Part shown: in pieces, positions 16,711 to 53,150 of the stretch | Layout of the letters: every line of letters starts with the position of its first letter | How positions within the stretch are numbered: position 1 is the stretch's first letter | Origin: Flavobacteriales bacterium | GTDB lineage: Bacteria; Bacteroidota; Bacteroidia; Flavobacteriales_D; Sanyastnellaceae | Assembly: GCA_027491075.1 (NCBI GenBank) | Contig: JAIXWX010000022.1 | Coordinates: 62,001-126,000 of the forward strand | Reading direction: 5' to 3' | DNA length: 64,000 bases | Notes under the pieces: model-generated | Told to the model about the DNA's origin: nothing | What the model saw: the letters and a program-made list of their open reading frames with translations, nothing else | Database searches by the model: none | Made by a program: the position numbers and the translations under genes

Positions 16711-17361
16711 CTAATTGAACCGTTTCAACAATTCGAGACTCGCCTGTTTCATGCTTTCTATAACAACATCTGCTTTTTGAAGAATGTCTTCATTTCCTAC
16801 TCCAACACAATGAAAACCTCCATCTTTGGCTGCCTCTACCCCAGAAATTGCATCTTCAAAAACGACGCATTGATCCGGTTTTAGTCCAAGGTCAGAAGCT
16901 CCTTTAAGAAATACCTCTGGGTTAGGTTTTGATAAATGAATTTTATTTCCGTCAATTATTGCGCTGAAGTAGTGCATTATTCCCAACTTTTCAAGAATTA
17001 AAATCGAATTCTTGCTGGAAGATCCCAACGCAATCTTAATATCATTTTCTTTTAGTTCTTTTAAAAAATCAGCGACACCAGGAAGCATCTCAGAAGGGTC
17101 TACTCCTTCCACATAATCTAAGTACCACTTATTCTTTAGCTCCATGAGTTCCAGTTTTTTCTGATTATTCAATTGAATATTTCCCCATGTGAGAATCTTC
17201 TCCAGACTGTCAACTCTGCTTACACCTTTCAATTGTTCATTTTGGGTCTCTGTGAATGGAATGCTTAGTGAATCAGCCAGTCGTTGCCAAGCTTTAAAAT
17301 GAAACTTAGCAGTGTCAACGATGACACCATCCATATCAAAAATACATGCTCTAATCTTCAT
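16711..17361 (-). CDS. pgmB: Beta-phosphoglucomutase family HAD hydrolase
   Basis: 216 residues of a HAD enzyme with a helical cap. The nucleophile motif FDMDGVIVDTA (Asp9 and Asp11) continues into KFHFKAWQRLA, which is the substrate-contact pattern of beta-phosphoglucomutase; LGSSSKN is motif II, SKPNPEVFL motif III and FEDAISGVEAA motif IV. Beta-PGM turns beta-glucose-1-phosphate, released by maltose or trehalose phosphorylases, into glucose-6-phosphate. It is the last gene of the pfkA-gapA-kinase-pgmB operon, one base after the kinase stop, which supports the sugar role over a generic phosphatase. No disaccharide phosphorylase is seen nearby. Confidence 0.85.
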   Translation of the reverse strand: MKIRACIFDMDGVIVDTAKFHFKAWQRLADSLSIPFTETQNEQLKGVSRVDSLEKILTWGNIQLNNQKKLELMELKNKWYLDYVEGVDPSEMLPGVADFLKELKENDIKIALGSSSKNSILILEKLGIMHYFSAIIDGNKIHLSKPNPEVFLKGASDLGLKPDQCVVFEDAISGVEAAKDGGFHCVGVGNEDILQKADVVIESMKQASLELLKRFN

Positions 17362-17362
17362 A

Positions 17363-18223
17363 CTAGGCTGTATGGAATTTGAACTTTAAATGATAATTTA
17401 CCAAACCATCTATTGGTTTGCGAATAATTTGTCCAAGGCGAATGCCTGTTTCTTTAGCGGCTTCTTGCAAACAATCTTCAAAATAATGTCCGATGCTACC
17501 TACGAAATGTACAGGGACATCTTTCCAATTACTAAAGCACTTTACATGAATATTAATGAAATGAATCATCCCTTTAGTGACCCATTGCTTTACATGCGGA
17601 TGATGTCTATGCTCTCCAATGAACTTCATGAATCCGGCTAAGTAAACGTTTGCGTTAGGTTCACGATAGACTCTTGAAATGATTTCATCTTTGGAAGGTG
17701 CGTGATACGTTTCAAATGCCTCTCTCAAATCCGCAGGAAGTTTTTTGTAAAAATACTCTTGTAATAGAATTTTGCCGAAATAGCTTCCGCTTGCCTCATC
17801 TCCCAATATGTATGCTAATGAAGGAACTTCTTCGTACACTTCTTTCCCATCAAAGAAGCACGAGTTACTACCTGTTCCAAGAATGCAAGCAATACAAGGT
17901 TCTCCGTCATAGGTACTCATTGCAGAACCAACAAGATCGTGATCCACCAAGATATCTGCGTTAATGAACACCCGTTTCAAACCTGCATTCATGATATCAC
18001 ACATTTCCTTGGTGCTACTTCCAGCTCCATAGAAGAAAATCTGCTTAACATCACTAGCAATGTTATTCAACTCAACATTGGATCGAAGTGCATTTTCGAT
18101 GACATCCTCACTATGGAAATAAGGATTCAGACCCATGGTTTGGTAATTTCCTAGACGTGTTCCTTTTTCGTCTATCAGGGCCCAATCGCATTTAGTGGAA
18201 CCGCTGTCAGCAATTAAAATCAT
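17363..18223 (-). CDS. BadF/BadG/BcrA/BcrD-family kinase, probable N-acetylglucosamine kinase-like
   Basis: 286 residues of an ASKHA-fold ATPase. Phosphate-binding loop 1 is ADSGSTKCDWALID, and ILGTGSNSCF is phosphate loop 2, with YILGDEASGSYFG after it; these fit the group that includes mammalian GlcNAc kinase and bacterial sugar kinases often called N-acetylglucosamine kinase. The exact sugar cannot be read from the sequence. It lies 21 bases after gapA and one base before pgmB, within an operon that channels sugar phosphate into glycolysis. The 286-residue length matches the Bacteroidota members. Confidence 0.78.
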   Translation of the reverse strand: MILIADSGSTKCDWALIDEKGTRLGNYQTMGLNPYFHSEDVIENALRSNVELNNIASDVKQIFFYGAGSSTKEMCDIMNAGLKRVFINADILVDHDLVGSAMSTYDGEPCIACILGTGSNSCFFDGKEVYEEVPSLAYILGDEASGSYFGKILLQEYFYKKLPADLREAFETYHAPSKDEIISRVYREPNANVYLAGFMKFIGEHRHHPHVKQWVTKGMIHFINIHVKCFSNWKDVPVHFVGSIGHYFEDCLQEAAKETGIRLGQIIRKPIDGLVNYHLKFKFHTA

Positions 18224-18244: not shown

Positions 18245-20235
<1,991 letters not shown>

Positions 20236-20282
20236 GTTGTTTCAATATTCTTTTTAGTGGTCTTTTCTCAGACGGAGCGAAC

Positions 20283-20303
20283 TTAGTGTATATTTTACAC
20301 TTA
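20283..20303. promoter_or_regulatory. Candidate operator 1 in the pfkA leader
   Basis: TTAGTGTA, five bases, TACACTTA: an inverted repeat whose inner arms AGTGTA/TACACT (20285-20301) are perfect. It lies just downstream of the pfkA -7 element and matches operator 2 exactly 95 bp away. I infer binding by the adjacent NrtR-type protein. Confidence 0.6.
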
Positions 20304-20317
20304 CCCAACTAAAAGTC

Positions 20318-20325
20318 CAAAAATA
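20318..20325 (-). promoter_or_regulatory. -7 promoter element of the pfkA operon
   Basis: The minus strand reads TATTTTTG, a perfect TAnnTTTG match, 82 bases before the pfkA start. Operator 1 would lie inside the first transcribed bases. Confidence 0.6.
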
Positions 20326-20373
20326 TTGTGAATTTGGTCAAATTGAGTATTTATAAACCAAGTCTTATTCTCT

Positions 20374-20381
20374 TATCTTTG
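20374..20381 (+). promoter_or_regulatory. -7 promoter element of the NUDIX regulator gene
   Basis: TATCTTTG, a perfect TAnnTTTG match, 26 bases before ATG 20408. Operator 2 overlaps it, which fits autorepression. It rules out the GTG at 20381 as a start codon. Confidence 0.7.
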
Positions 20382-20398
20382 TGTTCGAAATACACTTA
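20377..20398. promoter_or_regulatory. Candidate operator 2 at the NUDIX regulator promoter
   Basis: CTTTGTGTT, then CGAAA, then TACACTTA. It shares the spacing and the right arm of operator 1, and the left arm GTGT pairs with ACAC. It covers the end of the -7 element and the expected transcription start. Confidence 0.6.
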
Positions 20399-20407
20399 GC
20401 CTTGACC

Positions 20408-21124
20408 ATGAATCATTCCTCTTCAAGCCCATCGACACCTATGGATGTGTCTGTAGACTGTGTCGTCTTCGGGTTTGATGACCAAAAACTAAAAATTCTT
20501 CTCATTGAGCAGCGTCAGCCTGCCGATGGCTCGACCATCAAATTGCAAAAAGCGCTTCCTGGAGATCTTGTAAAGGACAATGAAAGTCTTGACGAAGCGG
20601 CAAGACGCGTTCTTTTGGAATTAACATCTTTGGAAGGTATTTACCTGAAACAATTCCAAGCATTTGGTGACCCCAATCGTGTGCGTGGGCTAAAAGATCA
20701 GGAGTGGCTGAGAAGCTTCCGCAATAACCCCGAGCGCCGTGTTATGACGGTTGGGTATTATTCCCTCGTGAAAATGGAGGATTTTAATCCAAAGGCGGCA
20801 TCTTTTGCTGGAAAAGCACAATGGATAGATGTTTACAAAGTACCATTGCTTGCGTTTGACCACAACGAAATCATCGATGATGCATTAAAAATGCTTCGTC
20901 ATGAATTGGTTGCTGACAATATAGGTTTCGAGCTTCTGCCAGACAAGTTTACCCTTTCTCAGTTGCAACGCCTACACGAAATTATTCTTGATAAAAAACT
21001 AGATAAGCGTAACTTTAGAAAGAACATTTTGAAAAATGAGCGTGTAACAGCCTTGAACGAAAAGCAAAAAGGCGTGCTTCACAAGCCCGCCCAATTGTTT
21101 ACTTTCAATAAAGTGGAGGAATAA
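20408..21124 (+). CDS. NUDIX-domain protein with C-terminal winged helix, NrtR-type transcriptional regulator
   Basis: 238 residues from ATG 20408. The N-terminal half is a NUDIX fold (DVSVDCVVFGFDDQKLKILLIEQ through AQWIDVYKVPLLAFDH), but the NUDIX box region (LPGDLVKDNESLDEAARRVLLELT) lacks the REUXEE glutamates needed for hydrolysis. The C-terminal part (LLPDKFTLSQLQRLHEIILDKKLDKRNFRKNIL) is the winged helix of the NrtR family, as in the Bacteroides arabinose regulator AraR. So it should bind a sugar or nucleotide ligand and DNA rather than hydrolyse. It is divergent from pfkA, and two matching palindromes lie between them. Control of the glycolytic operon is inferred. Confidence 0.85.
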   Translation: MNHSSSSPSTPMDVSVDCVVFGFDDQKLKILLIEQRQPADGSTIKLQKALPGDLVKDNESLDEAARRVLLELTSLEGIYLKQFQAFGDPNRVRGLKDQEWLRSFRNNPERRVMTVGYYSLVKMEDFNPKAASFAGKAQWIDVYKVPLLAFDHNEIIDDALKMLRHELVADNIGFELLPDKFTLSQLQRLHEIILDKKLDKRNFRKNILKNERVTALNEKQKGVLHKPAQLFTFNKVEE

Positions 21125-52628: not shown

Positions 52629-53150
52629 ATGAAGTCCATTGATGGAAGAATTGTGAAGATTGCTCTTTCTGCTGCGTCATTAGCTTACACTATATACTTA
52701 TTTATAGATGGAAGTTGGATCAGCGGCATTTTTATGACCCTTCTTACAGCACTATTGGTGTTATTAGTATTTCGCAGCATGCGTTTAGTGCTTGCCTTCT
52801 TGCAGATACGCCAACAAAAGATGGATAAGGCAAAAGCTTGGTTAGAGCGGGTCAATCCAAATCACTTGTGGAAAAACCAAAAAGGATATTATTACTTCCT
52901 GATGGGTTCAGTGGATGTTCAAAAGAACAGTTTAAGTAAAAGCGAAGAGTATTTTAGAAAAGCCCTTAGTCACGGGTTAAGAATGGATCACGACAAGGCC
53001 GCTGTATATTTGAATTTGGCTGTAATTCTTGCCAATAAAAGAAAAAAGCGCGAGGCCACGCACGCGCTGAATGAAGCTAAAAAATTCGATGCAAAAGGAT
53101 ACCTTAAAAAGGATATCAAAGAGGTCGGCAAATTCGTCAACAGTATTTAA
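52629..53150 (+). CDS. Membrane protein with TPR-like C-terminus
   Basis: 173 residues. Two hydrophobic segments (about 9-26 and 31-60) are followed by TPR-like helices (AKAWLERVNPNHLWKNQKGYYYFLMGSVDVQKNSLSKSEEYFRKAL, AVYLNLAVILANKRKKREATHALNEAKKFD). The family is not named, but small membrane-TPR proteins of this form are frequent in Bacteroidota. TPR helices mediate protein contacts; partner unknown. It ends six bases before the convergent hypothetical gene. Confidence 0.72.
   Translation: MKSIDGRIVKIALSAASLAYTIYLFIDGSWISGIFMTLLTALLVLLVFRSMRLVLAFLQIRQQKMDKAKAWLERVNPNHLWKNQKGYYYFLMGSVDVQKNSLSKSEEYFRKALSHGLRMDHDKAAVYLNLAVILANKRKKREATHALNEAKKFDAKGYLKKDIKEVGKFVNSI

Follow-up and report, generated by a model that had tools for sequence, protein, structure and literature searches.

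We consider it probable that two palindromes lying between pfkA and a divergent regulator gene of the NrtR/AraR family in a Flavobacteriales genome are operators of that regulator, which may act as a Cra-like repressor/activator released from its sites by a hexose or hexose phosphate. The window, meaning the whole stretch of DNA analysed, is 64,000 nucleotides long and belongs to a genome (G000) of 3.02 Mb that is 99.7% complete.

The first palindrome (copy 1, 20283-20303, unstranded) reads TTAGTGTATATTTTACACTTA and has the form TTAGTGTA-N5-TACACTTA; seven of its eight arm positions pair and it deviates from AAGTGTANNNNNTACACTT at a single position. The second (copy 2, 20378-20398, unstranded) reads TTTGTGTTCGAAATACACTTA, with five of eight arm positions paired and three mismatches to AAGTGTANNNNNTACACTT; its right arm is identical to that of copy 1 and its left arm is weaker and degenerate. 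The original prediction had described two near-identical palindromes: both are real, but copy 2 begins one base later than proposed, at 20378, and "near-identical" is generous. The predicted centre-to-centre distance of 95 bp, within an intergenic region of 172 bp, is correct. Dinucleotide shuffling of this region (n=5000) produced a site with at most one mismatch in 1 shuffle, and such a site plus a second with at most three mismatches in 0/5000, counts which serve as a guide only because the consensus was picked after the genome was seen. A bare perfect palindrome with 8-bp arms and a 5-bp spacer arose in 39/5000 shuffles, copy 1 itself being imperfect. Conservation provides stronger and independent support than these counts, since in an alignment of the spacer with two congeners (G001 and G002) the longest conserved blocks are both sites with their flanks, the -7 boxes included. 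The second copy is weaker in the congeners too (3 mismatches in G002, 4 in G001) and is conserved within the genus only, as judged from three species, so the proposed autoregulation through copy 2 is supported inside the genus but not beyond it. Elsewhere in the window a weak match to the motif occurs at 52680-52700 (3 mismatches), which is taken as chance.

Flavobacterial promoters carry a -7 box of the form TAnnTTTG at -12 to -5 (excerpts of PMC9723704). From this consensus and the congener alignment, the putative -7 box of the regulator is TATCTTTG at 20374-20381 on the plus strand; the centre of copy 2 lies 14 bp after the first base of this box, and the copy covers both the box and the predicted start site. 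On the minus strand, TAAGTTCG at 20278-20285, overlapping the pfkA-side end of copy 1, is the better candidate for the pfkA -7 box, because TAAGTTCG or TAAGTTTG recurs there in relatives; a candidate -33 element (TTG) is found at 20308-20306, 20 bp before TAAGTTCG, so that copy 1 would lie between the -33 and -7 boxes of pfkA. The earlier placement of copy 2 over the regulator's -7 box thus stands, but the pfkA box then proposed, TATTTTTG, is not conserved in the two congeners and is probably wrong.

The regulator (20408-21124, plus strand, 238 aa) was characterized by profile search, alignment and structure modelling as a NUDIX-like domain followed by an NrtR/AraR winged helix, with its start taken as the ATG at 20408 (the open reading frame list starts at GTG 20381). 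It matches NrtR_WHD (1.2e-23), NUDIX (5.2e-07) and AraR_C (9.4e-07), the first two above the Pfam cut-offs, and this domain order places it in the NrtR family, bearing out the earlier assignment of a NUDIX domain with an NrtR-type winged helix. Its best solved relatives are BtAraR (5bs6, E 3.2e-38) and Shewanella NrtR, and the structure model (pLDDT 83.9, pTM 0.79) superposes on BtAraR with Z 22.9 and rmsd 3.8 over 208 aligned residues, and on SoNrtR with Z 20.0 and rmsd 2.9 over 195. Set against the NUDIX box consensus GX5EX7REUXEEXGU (excerpts of PMC4666351), the regulator reads DLVKDNESLDEAARRVLLELTSL: two of the four box glutamates are replaced (V68, L72) and two are kept (E59, E71), so the claim that the catalytic glutamates are missing is half right, and both box glycines are replaced.

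It is, in our view, very likely that this protein binds the sites described here. The recognition helix, DKRNFRK, is identical to that of BtAraR, whose DNA-reading residues Lys179, Arg180, Asn181 and Lys184 are matched by K200, R201, N202 and K205; R201, N202, F203 and R204 are invariant across 18 aligned orthologues, and position 205 is Arg in some of them. The wing residues Lys204 and Arg205 of BtAraR are not kept, being H225 and K226 in the regulator, both invariant in the same 18 sequences. The DNA in the BtAraR crystal holds GTGT-N7-ACAC (PMC4666351, in excerpt), and as both this core and the recognition helix are shared, the link between protein and palindrome does not depend on gene neighbourhood alone. 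As for the ligand pocket, Arg34, Arg86 and His131 form the L-arabinose pocket of BtAraR according to the same excerpts. Equivalents of Arg86 and His131 are kept (R91, H152). The residue matching Arg34, where the alignment could be off by one position, is Gln in the family of the window, and other families of the order have Arg there. A 15-residue insert follows R91, with D97, W100, L101 and R105 invariant in the 18 orthologues. We read these residues as a pocket that would still be built around a sugar, but remodelled.

Transcribed away from the regulator on the minus strand is an operon whose first gene is pfkA, for ATP 6-phosphofructokinase (19252-20235; TIGR02482, 418.4 bits, cut-off 371.35), followed by gapA, for type I glyceraldehyde-3-phosphate dehydrogenase (18245-19228; TIGR01534, 444.8 bits, cut-off 367.2), a sugar-kinase-like gene (17363-18223) and pgmB, for beta-phosphoglucomutase (16711-17361; TIGR01990, 241.9 bits, cut-off 189.4). 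The kinase-like gene has a weak NagK_SO3507 match below cut-off and, at E 0.001, matches no Pfam family. Since no ROK or Glk-type kinase was found in this genome, nor in 17 of the 19 others searched alongside, it is a candidate glucokinase.

The position of this operon beside the regulator was followed in two partly overlapping sets of loci (some assemblies are the same): a first set of 80 contigs, 77 with enough upstream sequence, and a second of 58 usable loci of relatives, counted without 10 loci that were the second in their genome and without four loci with less than 150 bp upstream (L083, L281, L293, L312). The divergent neighbour in the first set is pfkA at 30 loci, gapA at 3, the kinase gene at 29 and none of these at 15, so that one of the three adjoins the regulator in 62/77. 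A site with at most two mismatches occupies the spacer in 26/30 pfkA, 3/3 gapA, 7/29 kinase and 2/15 remaining loci, with the reversed control at 0 throughout; at three mismatches these figures become 27/30, 3/3, 18/29 and 3/15 (control 0, 0, 2 and 1). The second set gave 35/40 for pfkA, 1/5 for the kinase gene and 0/13 for other neighbours at two mismatches (reversed control 0), and 37/40, 2/5 and 4/13 at three (control 4, 0 and 1). In these as in the other fractions reported here the counts are not independent events, because the genomes are related. Genus g9 offers a separated arrangement (G010, L099), in which the regulator lies about 3 kb from pfkA: pfkA retains its own site and none is found beside the regulator at up to four mismatches, so that the site follows pfkA, as expected for an operator of that operon. 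The pfkA-adjacent arrangement reaches from Flavobacteriales to Marivirga sericea (L316, with pfkA, kinase gene and site). Where the two genes are still neighbours in relatives the site is thus usually kept (the 26/30 and 35/40 pfkA loci), and the predicted control of pfkA-gapA-kinase-pgmB is strongly supported by this conservation, whose absence the original prediction had named as grounds for rejecting it.

Copy 1 belongs to a genome-wide motif, AAGTGTA-N5-TACACTT, a palindrome of the GTGT-N7-ACAC type. A scan of the window's genome with AAGTGTANNNNNTACACTT at up to one mismatch, a check proposed with the original prediction, found 11 sites against 1 for the reversed pattern. The sites related to central metabolism lie at the pfkA operon, IPExxDY-pyk, pckA/ftcD and pdhA, and those related to starch and sugar at genes for an alpha-amylase, a CBM48/CBM20-type starch protein, a GH31 glucosidase and an MFS sugar transporter; further sites accompany a TonB-dependent receptor adjoining an amylase-like gene, a large secreted protein and a divergent pair of secreted-protein genes (ftcD, the second amylase and the secreted proteins were named by eye). 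No NAD-metabolism genes were recognised among the regulator's neighbours or at these 11 sites, several genes having been read by eye. In related aquatic bacteria of other genera the candidate targets again include pyk, pckA, pdhA and genes for amylase, starch protein, transporter and TonB receptor, and NADP-glutamate dehydrogenase, monomeric isocitrate dehydrogenase and the PDH E1 beta subunit are added; gene context was covered for the sites of relatives apart from loci L117-L140, and in part for L116 and L141. It is thus highly probable that the regulator is a genome-wide regulator of central carbon metabolism, and the earlier proposal that it controls its neighbouring operon was right but too narrow, since the motif precedes many central-metabolism and starch genes.

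Two sites have neighbours of other kinds. In the window's genome the pckA site (L005) is some 40 bp ahead of ftcD (glutamate formimidoyltransferase, by eye), which runs on the opposite strand; the site could serve that gene instead of pckA, and histidine breakdown may thus be a target. At L158 (G035) a palindrome stands upstream of a putative phosphosulfolactate synthase gene (ComA, by eye), which is odd for a sugar regulon.

The number of sites follows the presence of the regulator gene. Across 120 genomes, minus 5 ambiguous ones and G000, the mean was 2.9 sites in 78 genomes with an orthologue and 0.69 in 36 without, and the reversed control did not differ (1.5 and 1.25); the association has p 1.6e-6 overall and 7e-4 both inside and outside the family, values in which relatedness is ignored. 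Upstream regions were compared in 30 chosen genomes, 22 with an orthologue and 8 without, pyk being found in 29. Sites with at most two mismatches preceded pyk in 8/21, pckA in 7/22 and pdhA in 9/22 of the orthologue-bearing genomes (24/65), compared with 0/8 for each gene (0/24) where the orthologue is absent; the reversed control gave 0/21, 0/22 and 2/22 with the orthologue and 0/8 each without. Within the orthologue-bearing group, pyk in 13/21, pckA in 15/22 and pdhA in 13/22 had no site at this threshold, the pckA misses including L217, with no upstream sequence, and L189, with only 140 bp. The bare core GTGT-N7-ACAC occurred upstream in 25/64 cases with the orthologue and 0/24 without (L217 left out; reversed control 0/64 and 1/24). 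One genus contains both states: G013 has 11 sites and G042, 99% complete and without the regulator gene, has 0. G042 can be seen as a natural loss, in which the regulator and all strict-motif sites are absent and pyk, pckA and pdhA remain.

This wide regulon shows in about half of the genera of the window's family, 11/21 having a genome with at least four strict sites. Genera g3, g5, g10 and g11 have 0-2 strict sites per genome, and lineages of this kind call for a motif model of their own. The reversed control reaches 8 against 9 for the motif in G010, and exceeds the motif in G021, G036 and G053. The strict motif as a universal operator was thus rejected, as it fails in several genera in which the core GTGT-N7-ACAC persists at some genes. 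In g3, g5 and g10 (L235, L236 and L237 at pdhA; L215 at pckA) the core is kept with other flanks, TCGTGT..ACACGA or the like, as if the operator had drifted by lineage; G004 carries TCGTGT..ACACGA at both pdhA and pckA, and G006 at pdhA.

When the distance from the palindrome centre to a TAnnTTTG box on the target strand is measured, two classes of site result. In the occlusion class of the window's genome the box lies at +8 for pfkA (TAAGTTCG), +9 for the amylase, +13 for the starch protein, +25 for the TonB receptor and +29 for GH31; no exact TAnnTTTG was found near the pyk, MFS and L027 sites of this genome, and pyk of relatives has a box or near box, where seen, at +12 to +24. For the pfkA, kinase, gapA and pyk sites of relatives a -7-like box follows at 5-30 bp in 38/78, against 7/78 in an equal interval upstream, with matches at +8 favoured because the TA of the box can be shared with the palindrome end; for the other 40/78 no -7 box was recognised in that range. 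The sites at pckA, pdhA, gdhA and icd have an exact TAnnTTTG at 36-125 bp, a wide interval, in 21/25, compared with 5/78 of the occlusion class. These position counts leave out sites with more than two mismatches and repeated flanks and were not thinned to one per genus. The pckA sites lie at +109, 110, 110, 111, 120 and 121 in 6/8 sequences, and in the window's genus at +177 (window genome, with a near-match box at +110) and +266 (congener G002). Those of gdhA lie at +86, 86, 87, 98 and 99 (5/5), those of icd at +69 (an exact box in one, a near box in the other), and those of pdhA at +42 to +47 in 6/10 and otherwise at +29, +38, +101 and +101, of which 29 and 38 adjoin the occlusion range. 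The pairs 110/120.5 and 86/98.5 are separated by about one helical turn, which suggests, for a small number of sequences, a role for the side of the helix on which the site lies.

According to the proposed mechanism, a regulator dimer would bind GTGT-N7-ACAC palindromes (AAGTGTA-N5-TACACTT) ahead of many genes. At pfkA-gapA-kinase-pgmB, pyk, the starch-use genes and, within this genus, the regulator gene itself, the site would fall between or on the promoter boxes, a position from which RNA polymerase would be kept off and transcription repressed; at pckA, gdhA, icd and most pdhA genes it lies clear upstream of the promoter, which points, less strongly, to activation. The ligand-free protein would accordingly hold down sugar intake and glycolysis and activate pckA, gdhA, icd and possibly pdhA. 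When the cells grow on starch or glucose, a hexose or hexose phosphate would enter the NUDIX-like pocket and move the winged helices, and the DNA would be released, as homology with BtAraR and its release by L-arabinose would predict. That the protein both represses and activates seems to us slightly less than evenly probable, and activation is a poor fit at pdhA, as PDH is also needed on sugar.

An alternative is that the same protein with the same regulon is purely a repressor, the sites at pckA, gdhA, icd and pdhA acting on unrecognised upstream promoters or bending the DNA. It would agree with BtAraR, for which L-arabinose is a negative effector that frees the protein from DNA (PMC4666351, in excerpt), and with the pdhA sites at 29 and 38 bp, and the positions of sites alone do not tell activation from repression. 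However, in 8/8 pckA sequences a TAnnTTTG box precedes the gene start by 33-48 bp, and in 6/8 the site lies 109-121 bp upstream of that box; the upstream neighbours are in tandem at seven loci (pckA L142 and L148; gdhA L109 and L146; icd L145; pdhA L006 and L116), so that these sites serve no divergent gene. We judge pure repression unlikely on this evidence, while still granting it some weight.

The remaining readings fare worse. Several genera of the family show the site at the neighbouring operon only, and the first-set contigs show it, or were examined, only there, as would be expected if the regulator controlled nothing but pfkA-gapA-kinase-pgmB and itself and all other sites were chance; this is very improbable given the 11 genome sites against 1 control, the recurrence of target genes in several genera and the absence of upstream sites in all 24 cases lacking the regulator gene. 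That another protein binds the motif, be it a Crp-type protein, an unknown factor or the one same-family paralogue in this genome (45% identical), is about as improbable. The paralogue's helix reads DKGNFRK, with Gly replacing the intercalating Arg, its upstream palindrome reads TTGT-N7-ACAA, G008 and G027, whose only matches are of the paralogue type, contain 0 and 1 motif, and motif number tracks the orthologue. The paralogue itself (L016:1571-2311, G000:C7), with its palindrome TAATTGTATAAAATACAAAAA, lies between secreted-protein-like genes and has the look of a sister regulator in which helix and operator changed in step. As for the original suggestion that a distance of 95 bp, or nine helical turns, would allow looping, here considered as a repression loop, both copies are indeed kept in three species of the genus, at 94, 95 and 97 bp, but outside it the second copy is absent or found at other spacings (e.g. 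32-36, 55, 69 or 115 bp), and no loop is needed because each copy alone already covers a promoter. Looping is thus very improbable, and it was rejected outside the genus.

Returning to the preferred reading, in which a ligand releases a regulator of many promoters, the chances that this ligand is a hexose or hexose phosphate appear about even. Glucose, glucose 6-phosphate or a nearby hexose phosphate would be favoured, because the candidate regulon runs from starch to pyruvate and the genes most often divergent from the regulator are pfkA and a sugar-kinase-like gene that may encode a glucokinase. It had been predicted that the protein senses a sugar or a nucleotide, of which the sugar is retained in this form. 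A nucleotide is unlikely, and ADP-ribose in particular is disfavoured, since the SoNrtR contacts described in the excerpts of PMC4666351 are not kept in the alignment of the regulator.

To our knowledge, the switch of Bacteroidota between sugar and amino-acid carbon is poorly understood. If the present reading is true, this switch could be approached through a single, testable regulator whose 21-bp operator is defined, as could the question of how central metabolites came to be recognised by a NUDIX pocket. As a tentative extension, slightly less likely than not, the NUDIX fold may have been recruited in Bacteroidota as a counterpart of Cra, released by a hexose or hexose phosphate, which would repress starch use and glycolysis from between promoter boxes, activate pckA, gdhA, icd and pdhA from sites placed in phase with the helix, some 40-120 bp above the -7 box, and so decide which way central carbon flows.

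Cra is a LacI-family protein, and the regulator carries no LacI-family domain, its only matches being NUDIX, NrtR_WHD and AraR_C. In E. coli, Cra (FruR) is a repressor of glycolytic genes and an activator of gluconeogenic and oxidative ones, and sugar catabolites displace it (excerpts of PMC3146397), and its targets overlap with those proposed here at pfkA, pyk, pckA and icd. This is a functional likeness and not relatedness: fold and operator differ, and the suggested resemblance to dual control comes from site positions. Among the central-carbon regulators of Proteobacteria, HexR and CceR likewise act over glycolysis and gluconeogenesis, HexR including pckA (PMC5507952, in excerpt), but they belong to another phylum and to the RpiR and LacI families, and respond to 2-keto-3-deoxygluconate-6P and gluconate-6P. 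For B. thetaiotaomicron, sugar-by-sugar regulators plus Crp are described (excerpts of PMC3878776).

The closest known system is BtAraR (BT0354), the L-arabinose regulator of Bacteroides thetaiotaomicron and a member of the NrtR family, with which the regulator shares the NUDIX-like domain and winged helix, the DKRNFRK helix, the equivalents of the sugar-holding Arg86 and His131 (R91, H152) and, here as a sequence motif, the operator core GTGT-N7-ACAC (PMC4666351 Table 2). It differs in the insert after R91, the Gln at the Arg34 equivalent and His-Lys in the wing for Lys204-Arg205, and no arabinose genes lie beside it, its candidate targets being glycolysis, starch use and gluconeogenesis. XylR (BT0791), of the same family and phylum, is a sugar regulator by genome context (PMC3878776; PMC4666351, both in excerpt); it is likened here by family and context, not by sequence, and unlike the present regulator it is assigned to xylose genes. 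SoNrtR, which binds ADP-ribose and represents the NrtR of NAD metabolism, has fold and domain order in common with the regulator (Z 20.0), whereas its ADP-ribose contacts, as given in the excerpts of PMC4666351, are not kept and no NAD genes were recognised beside the regulator. Within the parts of the literature covered, which excluded subscription journals and RegPrecise, no NrtR-family member was found over pfkA, pyk and pckA. Family, operator core and mechanism of release by sugar are thus already known from AraR and, by context, XylR; what we call new is a subfamily marked by an insert of its own and by a candidate regulon in central carbon metabolism, Cra-like in its proposed working and outside the family of Cra.
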